NCBI RefSeq assembly: GCF_004379255.2
Contig: NC_056035.1
Coordinates: 16,885,902 to 16,949,901 of the forward strand
From: Salvia splendens
Taxonomy: Eukaryota; Streptophyta; Magnoliopsida; Lamiales; Lamiaceae
Direction of reading: 5' to 3'
DNA: 64,000 nucleotides
In this document: positions 37,338 through 63,763 of the stretch, in pieces
Layout of the letters: the number at the start of each line of letters is the position of its first letter
How positions within the stretch are numbered: position 1 is the first letter of the stretch
The notes under the pieces: model-generated
Told to the model about the DNA's origin: nothing
The model's database searches: none
The model's input: the letters and a program-made list of their open reading frames with translations, nothing else
Position numbers and translations under genes: made by a program

Positions 37338-38440
37338 GAGTAAAGGCCAAAATTGGTCCTGAACATACAGCCATTTTACGATTTTGGTCCTAAACATTAT
37401 CTTTTGGATTTTTTGGTCCTGCACATATGGACATTTGATCATTTTGGTCCTGCACATATGGAAATTTGATCATTTTGGTCCCCCGTCAACATTTTCGTTA
37501 AAAACTAACGGTCAACATTATCTTTTGGATTTTTTGGTCCTGCACATATGGATATTTGATCATTTTGGTCCTGCACATATGGAATTTTGATCATTTTGGT
37601 CCTCCGTCAACATTTTCGTTAAAAACTAACGGTCAACGACCGATTTTTGACTAAAACAATGGGTTGGGTCGGGTTTGGGTTACACGTTAAGAAAAAAAAT
37701 AATTATTTTTTATTAATTAAAAAATTATAAAACTTTAATTTTTAGTTATTTTTGTTGATTAAAAATATTATAACGACTAAAACATGATGTTATTATACGA
37801 TTTAAACATGATATTACACAATAAAATAAAAAATTACCAAATTAAAATAATCATTTTTTAATCAAAATAATAAAATTAAAGTATATTAATATTTAATCTA
37901 TATAATAAAATTAAATAATTAAAAAATTATTTTTAATAAAATCTAAGCATAATATTTTCTTCAAATTCATGAAAAAATTAATTCAAAAATACTATACTTT
38001 AATTTTATTAATTAAAAAATATTAATTAATTTTTTAAGAATATTATGCTTAGATTTTAACGAAAATATTATGCTTAGATTTTAAGAAATTATTATTTTTT
38101 TCTTAACGTATAACCCAAACCCGACCCAAACACGACCCGACCCAACCCATTGTTTTAGTCAAAAATCGGCCGTTGACCGTTAGTTTTTAACGAAAATGTT
38201 GACGGAGGACCAAAATGATCAAAATTCCATATGTGCAGGACCAAAATGATCAAATGTCCATATGTGCAGGACCAAAAAATCCAAAAGATAATGTTGACCG
38301 TTAGTTTTTAACGGAAATATTGACGGAGGACCAAAATGATCAAATGTCCATATGTGCAGGACCAAAAAATCCAAAAGATAATGTTTAGGACCAAAATCGT
38401 AAAATGGCTATATGTTTAGGACCAATTTTGGCCTTTACTC
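37338..38440. mobile_element. MULE-type MITE with long TIRs, 1.1 kb
   Basis: Inverted repeats of about 350 bp start GAGTAAAGGCCAAAATTGG on both ends. They are flanked by a perfect 9-bp duplication TTAATTTTA (37329-37337 and 38441-38449), the Mutator hallmark. The TIRs contain internal GGTCCTGCACATATGG repeats. The inner TIR portions and the core (37660-38150) match the interior of the hAT element at 19472-20187. There is no transposase. Confidence 0.92.
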
Positions 38441-52037: not shown

Positions 52038-52052
<15 letters not shown>

Positions 52053-52399
52053 TAGTGATCTATGGCAAACACCTCTTAACCATATAACTAGAGAACAAAT
52101 AATAGCCACAAGATCAAAAAAATCAAGGGCTAATATTAATTTTCGAATTTAATGAGATATTAGCTCCCTCAATCACAAATTTACTCCATAATAACAAGTC
52201 AGGGGTATTATTGTCATTACACCATCGAATTAAATCCAAAATTGTGTTAGTCATTCAGAAATTCGCGCCGATTCAGTTCGTCTCTCTCGTTCTCCTCTGT
52301 TCAATCCGAATCGCCGACTCAACCGCATTCAAGCCGTCGCCGTCGCCGTCGCCGATTAAACCGAATTCAACTCGTCAGCATCATCTACTTTGTCAAACA

Positions 52400-55300
52400 A
52401 ATGGATACAAATCAAAAGGATTTTTCGAAAAGTAAGTTTCCTACTGATTAACAATCATTTCTAGGTTTTATTTTAGATCTGATTTAGATTTGTATTCTTT
52501 GTAGCTTTCGAACGAACAAAGAAAAAAACAACCGGAAGTTCCGTTTCACTTCACTCAGGCTCGAACCGTGAGTCATTCCTACTATTTATTAATTTTAATA
52601 TACAATATCTTCGTTTGCTGTGAATATGAAAACCGTAGTTTCTGTGTTTAGATTTATAGTTGTTTCACTGATGTTAAGTGATTATGAAAACCGTAGTTTC
52701 TGTAGTAAGATTTATAGTTGTTTCACTGATGTTTAGTGATTATGAAAACCATATGGCCTTTGTATTACGTTTACATGGTTAGATTTATAGTTGTTCTGCA
52801 AAAAAGAGTGAAGTGTTTCCTGAACAAGAGTGAAGTGTTTTCTGAACAAGAGTGATGTGTTTTGTGAACAAGAGTGAAGTGTTTTATGAACAAAAGTGAA
52901 GTGAAATCAGAATAAGAGTGATGTGTTTTTGTAACAAGAGTGATGTGTTTTCTGAACAATAGTGAAGTTTTTCCTGAACAAGAGTGTAGTCTTTTCTGAA
53001 CAAGAGTGATGCCTTTTGTAAACAAGAATGATGTGTTTTCTGAACTAGAGTGAAGTGTTTTGTGAACAAGAGTGAAGTGTTTTATGAACAAAAGTGAAGT
53101 GAAATCAGAATAAGAGTGATGTGTTTTGTGAACAAGTGTGATGTGTCTGATTTTTTGCTATATTGATTTTTTTCCTCATATCCATGAAGTTGCTGCAGCC
53201 GAAAAAAGGTCTAAGATGCGTGAAGATAGACTGCAACAAAGTGCTGCACGTACAACTGAAATAAGCACAATAAATCAACAGGATGTTCTTCGAACAACAA
53301 CTTCTGCCGAAATAAGGTCAAAAAAGAAAAATGGTATGCAGAAACCAGAGAGTGAGTTATGTAATTATTTATGTATTGGGCATAGTTATTAATGTATAAT
53401 TTTGAGCTATATTAAGTGTGTATTCACGAATTTGATCAAAAATCTTGTATGTATTTAGCCTCAAAGCGTGGGAGGTCACAATGCATCGACAAACCAGAAA
53501 TGCCTGCCAGAAAGAAACAGGCTAAAGCGAAGAGTGACAAAGCTATTACTTGTAAAATCAGAAGACCTAAATTGGTCATTAAGATAGGGGTGAAAGTTTT
53601 GGTTGATGCCATTGAGAAAATGAACTCCAAACAAAAAGCTGCTCTGGAAGAGATGGGTTTCGGACAGCTTGTGCATTTGAAGATACGATGTATTCCTGCT
53701 GACATGGCATTTTCACTACTTGAAAATTTTAATCATGACAACTGCTCCAGAATAAAACTTGTTGATGATCAACCATTACACATCACTGAGGAGGATGTGT
53801 ATGCTACGTTGGGACTGCCAAGAGGAGAGTTGATGATTAAAAGAGAAAAGAAGCATGAAATGAATGATGTGATGAAGACCATTGTCAATGCTAAGAAGAA
53901 CAAAGCAATAACCCCAGCTGATTTGCAAGAGCAGCTTGATAGTGATCTAGAAGGTGGTGAGTGGTTTAAGAAAATATTTCTTATTCTGTTGGACAATGTT
54001 CTGATCTCACCAACTGCCAACGGAAAATTTCTTGGCCGTATCTTGGACGATATTGGCAACATTTCAAATGTGAGGCAGTACAATTGGTGCAGCTACGTGT
54101 TGGATACGCTAATCACAGCACATGATAGCTGGAAACTCAAGAACAAATCCACCCCATTCACTGGACCAATCACTTTCCTCTTGGTGAGTTTTCTATTTTA
54201 ACCACTCCTTTATAGTGAAGTAAAAACATGCTTAGAGTGAAGTAAAATCAAATTTAGAGTGATGTTTTTCACGGTTAAGTAGTAAATGCATGGTTAGAGT
54301 GATGTGTTTTTTATACATGAGTGAAATCAGAATAAGAGTGATGTGTTTTGTAAACAAGAGTGAAGTAAAATGTGAATAAGAGTGAAGTGTTTTGTGAACA
54401 AGAGTGAAGTAAAATCAGAACAAGAGTGAAGTGTTTTGTGAACAAGAGTGATGTGTTTTGTGAACAAGAGTGAAGTAAAATGAGAATAAGAGTGATGTGT
54501 TTTGTGAACAAGAGTGAAGTAAATGAGAATAAGAGTGAAGTGTTTTGTAAACAAGAGTGAAGTAAAATCAGAATAAGAGTGATGTGTTTTGTAAACAAGA
54601 GTGAAGTAAAATGTGAATAAGAGTGAAGTGTTTTGTGAACAAGAGTGAAGTAAAATCAGAACAAGAGTGAAGTGTTTTGTGAACAAGAGTGAAGTAAAAT
54701 GAGAATAAGAGTGAAGTTTTTTGTGAACAAGAGTGAAGTAAAATGAGAATAAGAGTGAAGTGTTTTGTAAACAAGAGTGAAGTAAAATCAGAATAAGAGT
54801 GAAGTCCTTGTAATGCATTTTATTATTGATCTGTTTTTGCAGGCATGCTATGTAGATAGGGTTGTCTACAGAACAAGACTGGTGGTTAGAAGATTCCCAA
54901 CTGTCCGTAACTGGACAGAATTCATTCTTAAGGAGAGAGGACAGATGGAATTTGATAATGGAGGCACCATTGGAAGAGGAAGCATAGAAAGTATCATTGA
55001 TCCTGTCTCCATTGAATCTTTATATGCCAACAAGGATTCAATAACTGTCACTACCTCTGTCCCTTCAACTGATGAAGCAACTTTACGTGTTGAAGCCCCC
55101 CCTTCAACTGATGATGCCCCCCTTCAACTGATGATGCCCCCCTTCAACTGATCAAGTTCCTTCGTCTGATGAAATTAAAAGTTCAATTAGGGAGGCTGCA
55201 GATGCGATTAGTAAAATGATGAGGTATATAAAGGTTGCTCCAGCAAATACCAATGACATCAATTGCTTCAAAGTTGCAGCTATAAATGCACTAAAGATGG

Positions 55301-58120
55301 TTGGTGTGGAGGTTGATCAAGGGGACCAAGCTGTTTCTAAGCCAATTGAAAACATGACACAAGCTATGGAAGAGGATCAAGAAGATGATCCAGAATGGAT
55401 TCAGCTTGTGGAAAAACTGATGGAAATCCATGATGAAAAATGCAAATTAGTGAATGAAGGCACAACAATTTTCCCTGATATTAACTTGGGAAAGAAACCA
55501 GTAAGTTCAAGATTTGGAATAGAAACCATGGATATTTTAAACAATTTGATTGTGGTCTGTTGAACTTTAACACTTGACATTTGATTCAGAGTGAACTAAA
55601 AACAATTTGTATTATGTTCTGTACTAATGCATAATATTTATTTACTTTTTTGACTTTTTATTCTTATGTTATATCACATTTCACTATTTGCAGGAGACAA
55701 ATGAATTTTATGAAGATGTAGCTAAAGCAACATCACAAAACACACAGATGAAGGTATAAAAAAGTGCTTCGAGTGATGTGTTCCATTGTTAAGTGAGGTT
55801 TCTGTGTTGCATGTGTATAGTGATGTGTTTGTTAACAAGAGTGAAGTGAATTCAGAATAAGAGTGATGTGTTTTGTGAACAAGAGTGAAGTGTTTTCTGA
55901 AAAGAGTGATGTGTTTTGTGAACAAGAGTGAAGTGTTTTCTGAATAAGAGTGATGTGATTTGTTAACAAGAGTGAAGTGAAATAAGAATAATATTGATTT
56001 GTTTTGTGAACAAGAGTGAAGTAAAATCGAAGTAAGAATGATGTGTGTTATGAACAAGAGTGAAGTGATTTCTGAACAAGAGTGACGTGTTTTGTGAACA
56101 AGAGTGAAGTGTTTTGTGAACAAGAGTGAAGTGAAATATCAATAAGAGTGATGTGTTTTGTAAACAAGTGTGAAGTAAAAATCGTGTTGATAGTGATGTG
56201 TTTTCATTTCTTATTATGAAAATAGGACGACATTGTGGATGCCCAAATTGCATCTGCAATAGAAGCATGCATGGAGATATATGCTGATGATGATTGTGTT
56301 CAATCAGAGTTAAATGTATCTGGCAAAAATCCTTCAACCGAAATAGTAGTTTACAATCCAGACATTGTAAGTGTTAAACAATGATATATCTCATCCATTC
56401 ACCAACACTTTTAACAAACATCAAGTGAACTATATGTCTTATATAGTGATGTTTTCATATCATTCTTGCCCTGACAGGAAACTGCTAGGATTGAACAAAT
56501 GGAGATACGCTCAAAAGCTGAGAAGAAAATATCAGCTGCATTGAAATCTCCATTCCATGAAAGAGTGGTTAAGGCTAAAACCAAGTTTACCTTGAAAGAG
56601 TCACAAGTCTTTTTGTGGATTATGACAACAAATGAATTAAATGAGTAAGATTTATATTATAGTTCTGATTTAGAAAAAAAACATACAAAAGATGTGCTAA
56701 CACACACACATGTTTGAACAGGGACACCATAGTGTATGATGATGATGTCATAATGGTAACAAAAAGAGAATTCTGTTCACTGTTGTCACATACGCTAATA
56801 GAAGTGGGTGTGATAAGTGCATGGGCTTCTTATTTAAATAACATGGAAGAATACAGGTCCCTATCTTCATCGAGGCGCCTCTTTTTCACAACATACCCAA
56901 CGGTAAGAATAGAATAAATTTTGAACAGTATTGTGATTATGAAAACCGCAGTTTCTGTGGTAAGATTTATAGTTGTTTCATTGATTTTAAGTGATTATGA
57001 AAACCGTATGGCCTTTGTATTATGTTTACATGGTTAGATTTACGAGTGAAGTGTTTTGTGAACAAGAGTGAAGTAAAATCAAAGTAAGAGTGATGTGTTT
57101 TGTGAACAAGAGTGAAGTAAATTCAGAGTAAGAGTGATGTGTTTTGTGAACAAGAGTGAAGTAAAATCAAAGTAAGAGTGATGTGTTTTGTGAACAAGAG
57201 TGAAGTAAATTCAGAGTAAGAGTGATGTGTTTTGTGAACAAGGGTGAATAAAACAAAGTGAATTATTTCAATCCAGATTTAACTTGTCTCATTTTTCAGC
57301 TGTATACAGTTGTTCACCGGCCTGATGGGGTCGACCTCATGACCATAATTGATAGATTCTGTGACAATTTACAAACTGAGGTTGAACAAATTCCGTATTT
57401 CAAATGGGCCGACGTAGATTTGGTAAATACTGAACACAATTGATTCTTTATTATATTCTCTAGTTGTTTTTATTCTGAAATTATTATTATTATCTATGTA
57501 GGTGTTCTTTCCAATTTGTGCTGCGGAACATTACTATACCATATGCTTCAGATTTAGTACTAACAGTATAGTGCTGATTGACAATTCAAAGAATGCTGAC
57601 GATGTGGACATAACAGTCAAATATGGTGGCATACCTGAAAATGTGGTAAGTATACACGATATACAGTGCAGTATTTTTGTGATTACAATGAATTATAGTT
57701 CTCTTTATAGTGAACTACATCTGATATTCATGATGATATATTGCAGAAATTATATTTTTGTCATTATTTGACAAAAATGGGGCATCACAACCAAACCAAA
57801 TCAATAAAGGATGTGAGTATAATAAGGCTCAAAATGCCTTGGAGAACAACATCAAATGTAGAAGATTGCGGAGTTTTTTTGATGCGACATTTGGAATGTT
57901 ATCATGGTGAGCGCGAACAAGATTGGAAGTGTGGATTAACTACAAGAAGCAAAGGAATACTCCAAAGACTGAGAGCAAAGTATTGCAGCGCATTATTATT
58001 GTCGAAAAAAACCATCAGTCACTGAATATGTTGTCAGTAACATCAAAGCATTATGAAGAATATGGGAAAACCAATAACATAGATGTGGAAAAAATGATTG
58101 TAAACTTCAAGCGTTCATGA
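52400..58120 (+). CDS. Ulp1-like C48 cysteine peptidase gene of the MULE, about 12 exons
   Basis: Putative exons: 52400-52430, 52505-52567, 53190-53333 (or -53351), 53459-54183, 54843-55500, 55694-55753, 56226-56366, 56478-56644, 56722-56902, 57300-57422, 57502-57645 and 57747-58025. All have GT-AG borders and matching phases. Exon 4 encodes the N-terminal domain typical of plant transposon Ulp1 proteins (EEMGFGQLVHLKIRCIPADM, EEDVYATLGLPRGE). Exons 9-12 are the peptidase: His in AAEHYYTICF, Asp in LIDNS, Cys in VEDCGVFLMRH. Such enzymes cleave SUMO/ubiquitin-like tags; activity here is unproved. Exon 5 has a frame break in C-runs (55114-55142), and an A-run near 58004 shortens the C-terminus, whose ancestral stop would be at 58118-58120. 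Several introns are minisatellite arrays. Confidence 0.8.
52796..53140 (+). repeat. Modular 22-nt minisatellite, Ulp1 intron 2
   Basis: About 15 units of the 22-nt repeat: head AAGAGTGAAGT or AAGAGTGATGT, then tail GTTTTGTGAAC or AAAATCAGAAT with variants. Sense to the Ulp1 gene. Confidence 0.93.
54205..54815 (+). repeat. Modular 22-nt minisatellite, Ulp1 intron 4
   Basis: About 26 units, mostly alternating the GTTTTGTGAAC and AAAATCAGAAT tails, giving a 44-nt dimer. Long open frames on the minus strand here arise from the repeat and are not genes. Confidence 0.93.
55765..56215 (+). repeat. Modular 22-nt minisatellite, Ulp1 intron 6
   Basis: About 18 units, more diverged, same head and tails, sense to the Ulp1 gene. 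Confidence 0.9.
56932..57255 (+). repeat. Ulp1 intron 9: 55-bp companion repeat plus minisatellite
   Basis: It begins with GTGATTATGAAAACCG units also found at 52615-52795 and, inverted, at 63085-63205. It continues with about nine 22-nt units from 57043 on. Confidence 0.88.
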
Positions 58121-58121
58121 A

Positions 58122-59285
58122 CTATTGTAGAAAACTTCATAAGTGAATTAATAAGTACTTATTTTACATTAATATCTTGTTTACTATTTAATTCACTGTT
58201 GTGTTTTGTAAACCACTAAATGATGTGTTTTGTGAAGAAGAGTGAAGTAAACTCAGAATAAGAGTGAAGTCTTTCGTGAAGAAGAGTGAAGTAAAATCAG
58301 AATAAGAGTGATGTGTTTTGTGAACAAGAGTGTAACAAAATCAGAATAAGAGTGATGTGTTTTGTGAACACGAGTGAAGTAAAATCAGAGTAAGAGTGAT
58401 GTGTTTTGTGAACTAGAGTGAAGTAAAATGACAGTAAGAGTGATGCGTTTGTGAACAAGACTAAAGTAAAATGACAGTAAGAGTGATGCGTTTGTGAACA
58501 AGAGTGAAGTAAAATCAGAGTAAGAGTGAGGTGTTCAATGAACAAGAGTGAAGTAAAATCAGAGTAAGAGTGATGTGTTTTGTGAACAAGAGTGAAGTAA
58601 ATTCAGAGTAAGAGTGATGTGTTTTGTGAAAAAGAGTGAAGTAAAATCAAAGTAAGAGTGATGTTATGATTGAGAACTATTGTAGAAAACTTCATCAGTG
58701 AATTAACAAGTACTTATTTTACATTAATATCTTGTTTACTATTTAATTCACTGTTGTGTTTTGTAAACCACTAAATGATGTGTTTCGTGAAGAAGAGTGA
58801 AGTAAACTCAGAATAAGAGTGAAGTCTTTCGTGAAGAAGAGTGAAGTAAAATCAGAATAAGAGTGATGTGTTTTGTGAACAAGAGTGTAACAAAATCAGA
58901 ATAAGAGTGATGTGTTTTGTGAACACGAGTGAAGTAAAATCAGAGTAAGAGTGATGTGTTTTGTGAACTAGAGTGAAGTAAAATGACAGTAAGAGTGATG
59001 CGTTTGTGAACAAGACTAAAGTAAAATGACAGTAAGAGTGATGCGTTTGTGAACAAGAGTGAAGTAAAATCAGAGTAAGAGTGAGGTGTTTAATGAACAA
59101 GAGTGAAGTAAAATCAAAGTAAGAGTGATGTTTTTTGTGAACAAGAGTGAAGTAAAATCAGAGTAAGAGTGATGTGTTTTGTGAACAAGAGTGAAGTAAA
59201 ATCAAAGTAAGAGTGATGTGTTTTGTGAACAAGAGTGAAGTAAAATGACAGTAAGAGTGATGCGTTCTGTGAACAAGAGTGATGA
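58122..59285 (+). repeat. Ulp1 3' flank: 555-bp tandem duplication of minisatellite DNA
   Basis: The segment starting GAACTATTGTAGAAAACTTC at 58119 recurs at 58674, each followed by the same series of 22-nt units. Copy identity is high over about 430 bp. It fills the space between the convergent Ulp1 and FAR1-type genes. Confidence 0.92.
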
Positions 59286-59412
59286 ACTTACTGGCACTTG
59301 AGCATTAGTACTCTAAAAATTCGCATTGAGATAAAATTCACTCAAAAGTGTAATAAAATGAATCATTAGTACTCTAAAAATACTACAATGTGAACTATTT
59401 CTATACAAATCC

Positions 59413-59526
59413 TCATTGCCTCTGATTTGACTTCTCATTAACCTTTTTGCAGTTCCTAGAATCATGGTGTCCAATCTCATGACAGTTTCCACACTTTCGG
59501 CCTGGTTTCATTGCTAACTTTATTGC
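59413..59526 (-). pseudogene. Orphaned C-terminal CCHC zinc knuckle of the FAR1-type transposase
   Basis: Directly after the TAA, in the same frame, the sequence continues for 37 codons with AIKLAMKPGRKCGNCHEIGH, HDSRNC and a basic end before a stop at 59413. C-x2-C-x4-H-x4-C with HDSRNC is the usual last motif of this transposase family. One nonsense change (or readthrough or an unseen intron) separates it from the main frame. Confidence 0.8.
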
Positions 59527-62500
59527 TTACTCCCTCTTCGATTTCTTCCTACTTCCACTTCCCTTTGTACTAACAACCTCAGGAGGATGAACTTCAATAT
59601 TGTTCGGGACATGTGAGCCATAGAAGTTCTCAATCATTGCTCTCTTCTGTGTGGAAGACAGAACAACATTTTCGCCAAGAAGCTGCTTCCTACCTTCTTC
59701 AATAATTGCAGCGAATGCATTGATTTGATCAATGTTCCCTTCAATGCTTTGTGCTGTTTCAATGAATAATCCGTACAAGTTTTTAAATGCAATCTTCTTC
59801 TTGTCCACAGCAAGGTGTATTTCTTGATCATCACAAAAACCTCCATGTATTGGCTTCACAAACTGTGACTTCAACCATCTTCCTCCATGCAACTTCTCAG
59901 GTATCAACTTAACAAAATTATGTTTCAACACACAAAATATATGGCTGCACAATAGACCAAGTCTTTCAAATTTTTTGCATCCACACAAATAGGTGTCATC
60001 ACCAATGGAGTAAGTCACTGTCCATGAGTTTGAATCCTTGTCCTTTATGTCATATACTTCAATATCTGTATTGGTAGACACTCCTAGAGTTGCACAAGAC
60101 AAAGAGAAACATGCATATACTATCTCTTCTTGAATTTCAGTATAAGCACTACCACTATATATCGTCGATGCATGTTTCTCGATTTCCAATCCTGTTCGCA
60201 AAATAGGTACTTTTGTTGAATCATAGTATTCAAGCTTTGCACTATTACTTCTTTGAGTCTCCAGAGCATGATTATAGTTCATATAAAATTGCATAAGGTT
60301 AGCCCGAGACTTTGAGTACCTTTTGAAGAAGTTATTCTGTGATTCAGATATAGAAGTTGTCTTTATCAACGAACTCATCGAAAAATCACGGAAAAAGGCT
60401 GGAACCCAAAATTTTCTGGATGCAAACATTGATGAAAACCAGACATTATTGGTCAGCCCATATCTTTCCATTATAGCATGCCAAGTTTCCTCAAATGCAT
60501 CAGGTTCTATCAACTCTGACCATACACATGCATTCAGTTCCTTCTTTAATTGTTCACTACCAAGCATGTTCTTTGGCAATTTGTCAGCAACTTTATTCAT
60601 AACGTGCCACATACACCACCGGTGTCTTGTATTGACAAGGACCTCCTCAACAGCAACTTTCATTCCTAAGTCTTGGTCGGTTACAATGAGTTTGGGAGCC
60701 ACACCCATACACTTTACAAATTGGTTAAATAACCATGAAAAGGAGTTGGCATTTTCCTTGGACAAAAGGCCAGCAGCAAATGTCACAGGGCGACCATGAT
60801 TATCCTTGCCCGTAAAAGGAGCAAATATCATACAGTATCTGAAATGAAAAACAATTCACTATAAGCATGCAGAAAACACATCACTCTTTTTCACAAAATA
60901 CGTCACTCTTGTTCAGTCAATACTTCACTCTTTTTCACAAAACACTTCACTCTTGTTATGATTTCAGAAAACACATCAATATAAGCATGCAGAAAAATAC
61001 ATCACTCTTTTTCACAAAACACGTCACTCTTGTTCAGACAATACTTCACTTTTTTTCACAAAACACTTCACTCTTGTTATGATTTCAGAAAACACATCAA
61101 TATAAGCATGCAGAAAAATACATCACTCTTTTTCACAAAACACATTACTCTTGTTAAGAAAACACTTCATTCTTGTTCACAAAACACTTCACTCTTTTTC
61201 AGAAACACATCACTCATGTTATGATTTCAGAAAACAATTTAACAAAAGAGTAATTAGTGTGCACATACCTGTTTGTGGAGTATGTCGTATCAAACGAAAC
61301 AATATCTCCATACAAATGGTAGTTTCTTCTGGCAGTAGGATCACACCAAAACAATCGTGTCATCCTATCCTTTGAGTTGACCTCATACTCATATGTAAAT
61401 GCACTACACAACTCCTTCTTCCTTCGCAACTCATTCAATAACATTTGTGCATCAGCTCCTTCTACATAAGCTCTAAAGTCACGTCTATAGTTGCGCACTT
61501 CTAAAACAGTACACCCTACATAATCTAATCCACCAAGCACTTCTTTAAGTAAGCTAAAACTTAAAGTTGGACCAATATTTGCATTAACACAATCGAGGAT
61601 GAATTTCTGATGGACTAAATCCAAATTACGGTTCAAATTCATAAAACGCTTATGGCGTTCCTCAACCATCTCATGATTATGGTCTTCAACGAAACTTTGT
61701 ATAACATAACCAACACCCATAATATACTTCCAAGACACTTTAGCATTACAATAGCACTTAATAGAAGAACGCTTTCGTTTCACCTCAGATTGTTTACTGT
61801 TTCTTTGCTTTGTACCTTCTCGGCTACACACCACGTAAATCCAAGTAGTGACATCTTTTTCCTTTTTCGATCCCTTTTTACGGGTGTCAAATCCAACATA
61901 TCGAGCATAATTATTGTAGAAGTCCAATGCACGATCAAGGGTCATGAAACTTTGTCCAATTTTTGGTTTCAATTCATCTGGGCATTTTGGTACGCAAACC
62001 ACTGTAAAAAACACAGCACTCTAATAATGAGATTACTGCACTCTTGTTCAGAAAAAGACTTCACTCTTGTTCACAATACACATCACTCTTATTCTGATTT
62101 TACTTCACTCTTGTTTACAAAACAAATCACTCTTATTCTCATTTTACTTCACTCTTGTTCACAAAACACTTCACTCTTATTCACAAAACACTTCACTCTT
62201 GTTCACAAAACACATCACTCTTATTCTGATTTTACTTCACTCTTATTTGCAAAACACATCACTCTTATTCTGATTTTACTTCACTCTTGGTCAGAAAACA
62301 CTTCACTCTTATTCTGATTTTACTTCACTCTTCTTCACGAAACACATCATTTAGTGGTTTACAAAACACAACAGTGAATTAAATAGTAAACAAGATATTA
62401 ATGTAAAATAAGTACTTGTTAATTCACTGATGAAGTTTTCTACAATAGTTCATGAACGCTTGAAGTTTACAATCATTTTTTCCACATCTATGTTATTGGT

Positions 62501-63373
62501 TTTCCCATATTCTTCATAATGCTTTGATGTTACTGACAAGAGTGAAGTGTTTTGTGAACAAGAGTGAAGTGTTTTGTGAACAAGAGTGAAGTAAAATGAG
62601 AATAAGAGTGAAGTGGTTTGTGAACAAGAGTGAAGTAAAATCAGAATAAGAGTGATGTGTTTTGTGAACAAGAGTGAAGTGTTTTCTGAACAAGAGTGAA
62701 GTAAAATCAGAATAAGAGTGATGTGTTTTGTGAACAAGAGTGAAGTAAAATCAGAATAAGAGTGATGTGTTTTGTGAACAAGAGTGAAGTGTTTTCTGAA
62801 CAAGAGTGAAGTGTTTTGTGAACAAGAGTGAAGTAAAATCAGAATAAGAGTGATGTAAACACATCACTCTTATTCTGAGGGCATCACTCTTGTTCACAAA
62901 ACACATCACTCATGTTAACAAAACACATCACTCTTGTTCACAAAACACATCACTCTTGTTCACAAAACACATCACTCATGTTAACAAAACACATCACTCT
63001 TGTTCACAAAACACATCACTCTTGTTCACAAAACACATCACTCTTATTCTGATTTCACTTCACTCTTATTTGCAAAACAACTGTAAATCTAACCATGTAA
63101 ACATAATACAAAGACCATACGATTTTCATAATCACTTAACATCAGTGAAACAACTATAAATCTAATCACAAAAACTACGGTTTTCATAATCACAATACAC
63201 GAAAATATTGTATATTAATAAATAGTAGGAATTGTTATAGAATTGAACAAGAGTGAAGTAATTGTTATAGAATTGAACGAATAATGATTACCTTTAGAAG
63301 TCTCAGCTTCCTCGCCCGAAGCTGATGAATCGGAATCGAAATAATCTTCGTCCGACCTCATAATTGAATCCAT
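59527..63373 (-). CDS. FAR1-related MULE transposase, three exons, 708 aa
   Basis: Exons, minus strand: 63373-63292, 62001-61269 and 60838-59527; 2127 nt in frame. An acidic start (DEDYFDSDSSASGEEAE) precedes the FAR1 DNA-binding region (about 30-130: FYNNYARYVGFDTRKKGSKK). The DDE/MULE core follows, with Asp in VSFDTTYSTN and VTDQDLG and a WCMWHVMNK helix. A SWIM zinc motif CGCKKFERLGLLCSHIF lies near residue 560. The length and order match FAR1-related-sequence (FRS5-like) proteins. It should bind element ends and catalyse transposition; domesticated relatives are light-signalling factors. The TAA at 59527 is followed in frame by a conserved zinc knuckle, so the end may be a recent truncation. 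Confidence 0.92.
60860..61245 (-). repeat. Minisatellite in FAR1-type intron 2
   Basis: The same 22-nt family read on the minus strand (sense to the transposase gene), mixed with a unit containing ATAAGCATGCAGAAAA on the plus strand that recurs about every 110 bp (60862, 60981, 61102). Confidence 0.92.
62015..62345 (-). repeat. Minisatellite in FAR1-type intron 1, proximal block
   Basis: About 14 units, sense to the minus-strand gene, ending in the copied Ulp1 tail. Confidence 0.92.
62325..62537 (-). repeat. Inverted copy of the Ulp1 terminal exon and 3' flank
   Basis: The reverse complement of 58033-58245, including the codons for SVTSKHYEEYGKTNNIDVEK and the following 3' flank. It lies within intron 1 of the transposase gene and is therefore read in Ulp1 sense in that transcript. 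Confidence 0.93.
62538..63095. repeat. Head-to-head minisatellite arrays with perfect central palindrome
   Basis: Plus-oriented units (62538-62856) meet minus-oriented units (62861-63095). The junction is an 18-bp perfect inverted repeat (TCAGAATAAGAGTGATGT at 62839-62856 and its complement at 62861-62878) around the loop AAAC. The whole block could fold into a hairpin of over 200 bp. Confidence 0.93.
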
Positions 63374-63723
63374 TGATTTGAATCACGATGATTGATTTGA
63401 ATCGCGATGAACGGATTGAATAACGAATTGAATCGCGTCGAATTGAATTCAATCGCGATTTGAATGAAGTAATAAGATTTGGAACGAAATTTGGAAAAAA
63501 ATCGGATCGCAAGTTTGGAAGGAAAGAAAAGATCGCAGATTATGGAGTAATTTGATCGCAGATTTGCATGTTTGATCGCAGATTTAAATTAAGAAAGCAA
63601 TTTCCAAAATTACCCTCAGCATATTTTCTATAATTAAAATAAATAATATTTGTTCCATTAAGATGTGTGGCTGAGATTTGTTCTCTAGTTATACACTTAA
63701 GATTAGTTATACATTGATCACTA

Positions 63724-63726
<3 letters not shown>

Positions 63727-63763
<37 letters not shown>

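Follow-up and report, generated by a model that had tools for sequence, protein, structure and literature searches.

Intronic 22-nucleotide arrays of a Mutator-like element in Salvia splendens as the probable DNA target of a VANC-like protein encoded by the same family

In a 64-kb stretch of Salvia splendens contig NC_056035.1 (the window), a Mutator-like element (MULE) of about 11.7 kb carries a transposase gene and, on the opposite strand, a gene that we call VANC-like. Tandem arrays of a 22-nucleotide (nt) unit, made of a conserved head and a more variable tail, fill introns and flanking DNA of these genes. These arrays probably act in cis as the DNA that is targeted by a VANC-type anti-silencing protein, itself encoded by the element family. 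In the proposed mechanism, the gene at 52401-58025 would encode a protein that joins a VANC21-like DNA-binding domain to an Ulp1-like C-terminus, and the head (core AGTGAWG) would be its binding motif. Units recur at a fixed pitch, 22 nt in this element and 21 nt in two relatives, that corresponds to about two turns of the helix. Neighbouring sites would thus face the same side of the DNA, and many molecules could then bind jointly, singling out a long non-coding target. Binding would lead to loss of DNA methylation and of other silent marks across the element and, in trans, to the same loss over non-autonomous copies that retain the array. Spread and turnover of the arrays are put down to the duplication of single units and to that of whole segments, in direct or inverted form.

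Such an arrangement has precedents. In the passages that describe it, VANC21 binds a nine-base motif present in introns, intergenic and terminal non-coding DNA as dense arrays of one orientation, and it causes loss of methylation across whole elements; VANC6 does likewise with another motif (PMC5735166). Ulp1-carrying VANC genes (Kaonashi) are also described, in a review (PMC13317346), as recognising motifs of their own kind. The Salvia arrays would fit as the target of the family's own VANC-like protein.

The existence of a 22-nt minisatellite, proposed in a first-pass annotation of the window, is borne out by the counts. The window contains 158 heads with at most one mismatch, as compared to 3.43 expected and to a maximum of 10 in 100 shuffles, and 157 of them lie at 52804-63259. 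Exact heads number 119. Using the core AGTGA[AT]G, 88 of 116 gaps between successive heads are exactly 22 nt on the forward strand, followed by 44 nt (9) and 21 nt (5); on the reverse strand, 20 of 31 gaps are exactly 22 nt, followed by 44 nt (3) and 21 nt (1). In a 2022 EMBO J study of Kaonashi, specificity is reportedly set by motif sequence, density and helical periodicity. Every unit had been annotated as a head joined to one of two tails. This holds for 108 of the 119 units, whose tails agree with either type at a minimum of 8 out of 11 positions; the remaining 11 tails fit neither. Head-tail pairing follows a grammar: the A-type tail (AAAATCAGAAT) is found after 0 of 44 ATGT heads, and AAGT heads take both tail types (40 and 29). 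Information content is 1.36 bits per position in the head as compared to 0.77 in the tail (119 units, picked by the preceding head). CpG is almost absent from the arrays at 52804-63067, with 0 to 6 per array.

The arrays occupy introns 2, 4, 6 and 9 of the VANC-like gene (named after Ulp1 in the first-pass annotation, which placed them in at least four of its introns), its 3′ flank and both transposase introns (Table 1). All 50 exact heads within the VANC-like gene are in the sense direction and belong to 4 of its 11 introns, and the exons of the gene model contain no exact head. All blocks but one had been said to read in the sense of their host gene. The plus block at 62538-62856 is indeed the exception and the VANC-like gene is sense throughout, but by heads the transposase gene shows only 26 sense vs 16 antisense. 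One further exact plus head lies at 63249 in transposase intron 1. Segmental copies are visible in the same intron. Sequence 58031-58510 recurs there in inverted form (92% over 482 bp, 98.9% outside the array), with 58044-58225 found at 62526-62345 (98.9%), and 52575-52791 recurs inverted at 63232-63080 (88-91%). Of the three blocks that read in the sense of the transposase gene, two lie in or beside these inverted copies from the Ulp1 side; therefore, much of the opposite-strand pattern reflects symmetry of the element. Duplication, invoked in the earlier reading of how the arrays spread, is supported as the mode.

Table 1. Coordinates of the element, its genes and its arrays in the window
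Feature	Positions	Strand	Remarks
Mutator-like element, ~11.7 kb	52049..63727		imperfect terminal inverted repeats; same ends met at other loci
Left terminal inverted repeat	52049..52110	+	end-to-end alignment
Right terminal inverted repeat	63666..63727	-	end-to-end alignment
VANC-like gene, 12-exon model	52401..58025	+	exon 4 with DUF1985-like/VANC21-fold domain (predicted); C-terminus Ulp1-like; one frameshift, within exon 5
Exon 4, predicted VANC21-like DNA-binding domain	53459..54183	+	fold match to VANC21; DUF1985 below cut-off
Transposase gene	59527..63373	-	exons 63373-63292, 62001-61269, 60838 to stop; FAR1 and MULE domains
Array, intron 2 of VANC-like gene (array 1)	52804..53146	+	8 exact heads
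Array, intron 4 of VANC-like gene	54330..54805	+	22 exact heads; degenerate units from 54210
Array, intron 6 of VANC-like gene	55819..56176	+	12 exact heads
Array, intron 9 of VANC-like gene	57042..57259	+	8 exact heads; direct copy of array 1 leader at 56928-57030
Two arrays, 3′ flank of VANC-like gene	58221..59285	+	58221-58664 and 58776-59285; direct duplication; 27 exact heads
Array, transposase intron 2	60873..61220	-	7 exact heads; 121-bp higher-order repeat
Array, transposase intron 1	62058..62349	-	12 exact heads; inside inverted copy of 58031-58510
Array, transposase intron 1, antisense exception	62538..62856	+	15 exact heads
Array, transposase intron 1	62861..63067	-	7 exact heads; adjoins inverted copy (63080-63232) of array 1 leader

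The VANC-like gene was modelled with GT-AG borders at all 11 introns. Fold prediction matched its exon-4 domain to VANC21, a protein solved in its DNA-bound form, and this domain is therefore predicted to have a VANC21-like DNA-binding fold. DUF1985 of Pfam scored 17.8 bits with exon 4 alone and 15.3 bits with the whole protein, both below the cut-off of 35.1, and the Pfam plant mobile domain (PMD) matched some relatives under its own cut-off. A sequence search of the PDB with the relative P0001 returned eL22 alone (E values of 0.37 and 0.5); profile A1 matched RNA helicases alone (best E 0.012) and did not match VANC21. No match to P0001 was obtained in NCBIfam. At the C-terminus, Ulp1 (C48) scored 16.0 bits in the window copy, under the cut-off of 20.7, and 24.5 bits in P0001, over it; the best relative found, a Salvia divinorum protein with 56% identity across 38% of the query, exceeds the C48 cut-off. 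When the window protein was compared to P0001, the His, Asp and Cys residues of EHYY, IDN and EDCG were found to align, and we take these to be the Ulp1 catalytic residues.

The exon-5 frameshift is located at 55093-55150, where a coding repeat of 20-21 bp is present three times; its run of C is 7 long in the first copy and 6 long in the other two. The shift may reflect either a true break in the gene or a fault of the assembly. With the window copy frameshifted, a working protein would therefore need to come from other copies. The ratio of nonsynonymous to synonymous substitutions (dN/dS, NG86) of exon 4 with respect to the window was obtained for the 9 loci that fall below 98.5% identity. 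It was 0.33-0.46 in 7 of them, leaving out L044 (1.03) and L051 (0.93), which the fixed frame misaligned. With few substitutions and shared ancestry, these values are weak evidence of selection on the protein.

The second gene of the element is split into three exons, which together give an uninterrupted reading frame of 708 amino acids. The MULE transposase domain PF10551 scored 94.8 bits against a cut-off of 27.6, and Salvia splendens proteins named FAR1-RELATED SEQUENCE 5-like are 98-99% identical to the window transposase. The two ends of the element align in 49 of 62 columns, and a (TA)17 microsatellite adjoins the right end (TA run at 63727-63760). Insertion into such a microsatellite masks any target site duplication, which in MULEs measures 9 bp (8-11). 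About 160-220 bp at the left end and about 160-250 bp at the right end (63514-63760) are common to the window element and to non-autonomous elements.

Genome-wide, the exact head-N11-head pattern gave 21,407 + 26,158 = 47,565 pairs, and a 36-nt segment from the inner part of the left end was found at 598 + 563 sites with at most 3 mismatches. For a sample, array clusters on contig C1 were ordered by coordinate and the first five were taken. At least one of the element's ends is present in all five and both ends in four. These four clusters are single arrays within elements of about 1.9-3.2 kb, having their ends and array in common with the window element; compared to each other, the four short elements showed no same-strand match beyond the ends. 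In each of the four, the array reads away from the left end into the element, and about 800 bp separate that end from the first exact head. The fifth cluster is complex, with three left-type ends seen and arrays in both directions. Searching 30-kb stretches with both proteins (tblastn) gave no match at any of the five clusters, as compared to 12 matches in the window control. Whether the repeat occurs outside this element had been raised in the first-pass annotation: it does, yet the sampled clusters all carry element ends. A general satellite independent of the element was considered and is not supported within this sample of five clusters, from a genome with 47,565 head pairs, nor by the location of all 119 exact heads of the window inside the element at ~52049-63727; arrays lacking these ends may exist elsewhere.

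The joint retention of ends and array in non-autonomous copies could also mean that the arrays are the transposase's own binding sites, that is, internal or subterminal repeats recognised by a FAR1-type transposase and kept for mobility, and the transposase does have a FAR1 DNA-binding domain. We consider this very unlikely, since the arrays begin about 800 bp inside the four short elements and in the window occupy introns distant from either end. Moreover, in the relatives examined, compared by their VANC-like gene, the arrays sit in the introns of that gene while the motif differs. Left of the array at L016 (element N1854), a GC-rich stretch reads, by eye, as what is presumably part of a cytochrome P450. 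Non-autonomous elements may thus carry pieces of host genes in the manner of Pack-MULEs.

Strand bias was found to extend beyond the window. In 30 loci around exon 4 (the window and 29 copies), heads are 1018 sense vs 9 antisense, so that orientation is not random in the other copies; these loci share ancestry and are not independent. More distant relatives were obtained from a genome search with exon 4, in which 150 of 900 candidates were scored, giving 151 matches. Among the scored candidates, families at about 39-45% identity to exon 4 lie below the close clade, with broken copies standing apart at about 58-62%. We then examined parts of four diverged loci. In L054, the intronic motif TGAAGTA (family motif ATGAAGTA) occurs 14 times sense vs 0 antisense and is missing from the exon parts covered. 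Of its 16 gaps, 9 measure exactly 21 nt, and the maximum 7-mer count in 200 shuffles was 10. In L057, AAATGAT occurs 34 times sense vs 0, with 20 of 33 gaps exactly 21 nt, the array here being backed by tandem-repeat scores of up to 336 rather than by shuffles. In the introns of L055, TAATGA is sparse, 10 sense vs 1, with three gaps of 22-23 nt and one of 44 nt. The counted parts of L054, L055 and L057 contain no AAGAGTGA. Pairs of the L054 motif ATGAAGTAAYA number 25 + 12 genome-wide, far below the window motif. Overall, the motif differs among related families, firmly so for L054 and L057 and suggestively for L055, and the strand consistency seen in the window holds more widely.

These families also bear on the idea that the arrays are a functionless minisatellite, a by-product of slippage and segmental duplication in a recombination-prone element. 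Array size does vary among close copies, from 23 to 60 exact heads in the 30 loci, and both direct and inverted segmental duplications are present in the window. A by-product is nevertheless highly improbable in view of the greater conservation of the head than of the tail, of a pitch that stays constant with two unlike tails, of the similar pitch and sense intronic placement kept by L054 and L057 with other motifs, and of the arrays being kept in elements with unlike interiors.

The same strand counts (50 of 50 in the VANC-like gene, 1018:9 in the 30 loci, 14:0, 10:1 and 34:0 in the other families) are what would be expected if the arrays worked at the RNA level, as splicing enhancers, retention signals or RNA-protein binding arrays. 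This was the role favoured in the first-pass annotation, and it is not the best explanation; we give it very little weight. Of the 119 exact heads, 27 belong to the 3′ flank and 16 run antisense to the transposase gene, 43 in all; arrays are found in sampled elements having neither protein detectably, the array-bearing gene encodes a predicted DNA-binding fold, and two of the three transposase sense blocks adjoin inverted copies. Transcription that starts at the left end of gene-free copies is still conceivable.

A DNA target for the VANC-like protein thus remains the preferred reading, and several points weigh against it. L055 is statistically weak, its best 7-mer being counted 7 times against a shuffle maximum of 14, and L056 shows AATGAT at 6:0 without an array. 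Inheritance, duplication or a genuine requirement could each lie behind the strand rule. Moreover, G-over-C skew on the sense strand is 0.56-0.77 in the arrays of the VANC-like gene and its 3′ flank, as compared to 0.09 in array-free introns and exons of this gene, and such C-poor sense-strand arrays would leave room for a co-transcriptional role. Orientation might even be part of the signal, escape from silencing then needing both motif and direction; for instance, transcribed arrays could favour R-loops that shield from methylation and help the VANC-like protein to load. This seems unlikely, as the skew is -0.72 in the antisense block at 62538-62856, 0.39 in L057 and 0.22 in the L054 intron, no more than in its exon (0.23).

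Some further arrangements were observed. On contig C9 (34882482-34892722), seven broken exon-4 copies stand in a row, mostly about 1.5-1.7 kb apart; each stops near residue 138, five then show the rest with stops, and the row is a local tandem amplification. On contig C7 (10523615-10527413), exon-4 copies L050 and L053 lie in opposite directions 3 kb apart, with outward-facing left ends at 10522228 and 10528861. This head-to-head pair is perhaps one element with two left halves. Elsewhere in the window, two arrays of 121-bp units in opposite directions (37393-37637 and 38172-38396) are perhaps the ends of another element.

If the arrays are indeed bound by the family's own protein, one plant genome would hold a natural set of VANC-like proteins, several with an array of their own near a two-helical-turn pitch. 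How such proteins change targets would become directly testable, each protein against each motif. The existence of gene-free copies with arrays suggests that the non-autonomous elements form a large population, possibly shielded from silencing in trans. Since motif-directed removal of methylation is of practical interest, new specificities would widen the set of available proteins.

Overall, on its sequence and predicted fold we assign the element to the VANC/Kaonashi kind; it adds a FAR1-type transposase, recognisable ends and clear motif divergence within one genome. Assignment to VANDAL elements, with their degenerate or absent terminal repeats, was rejected on the alignment of the two ends. 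MuTAnT elements of Medicago are likewise MULEs flanked by TA microsatellites, with one putative autonomous copy and many short non-autonomous ones, but their transposase is mudrA-like, the main text is without the terms 'Ulp1' or 'FAR1', and the passages concerned present no such arrays (PMC4486113). Kaonashi (KIU) elements, as described in part of PMC13317346, are Arabidopsis MULEs without terminal inverted repeats, whereas the Salvia element has terminal repeats, TA-microsatellite flanks, a FAR1-type transposase and a mint-family host; both combine VANC-like and Ulp1-like domains in one MULE gene, with motifs of their own in non-coding regions. From VANC21 and VANC6 of Arabidopsis VANDAL21 and VANDAL6, as presented in passages of PMC5735166 and PMC10398659, the Salvia system differs in its motif (theirs are YAGTATTAY and AGTTGTCC/AGTTGTAC), its strict 22-nt unit, its FAR1-type transposase, its recognisable terminal repeats and its Ulp1-like C-terminus. 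Two genes were found as compared to their three, and the function in Salvia is a predicted one. In common with them, it has a transposon-encoded protein with a VANC21-like fold, predicted in the present case, and short motifs in dense same-orientation tandem arrays in introns, intergenic and terminal non-coding DNA; in both systems the motifs differ among related proteins and the repeats expand and contract quickly.
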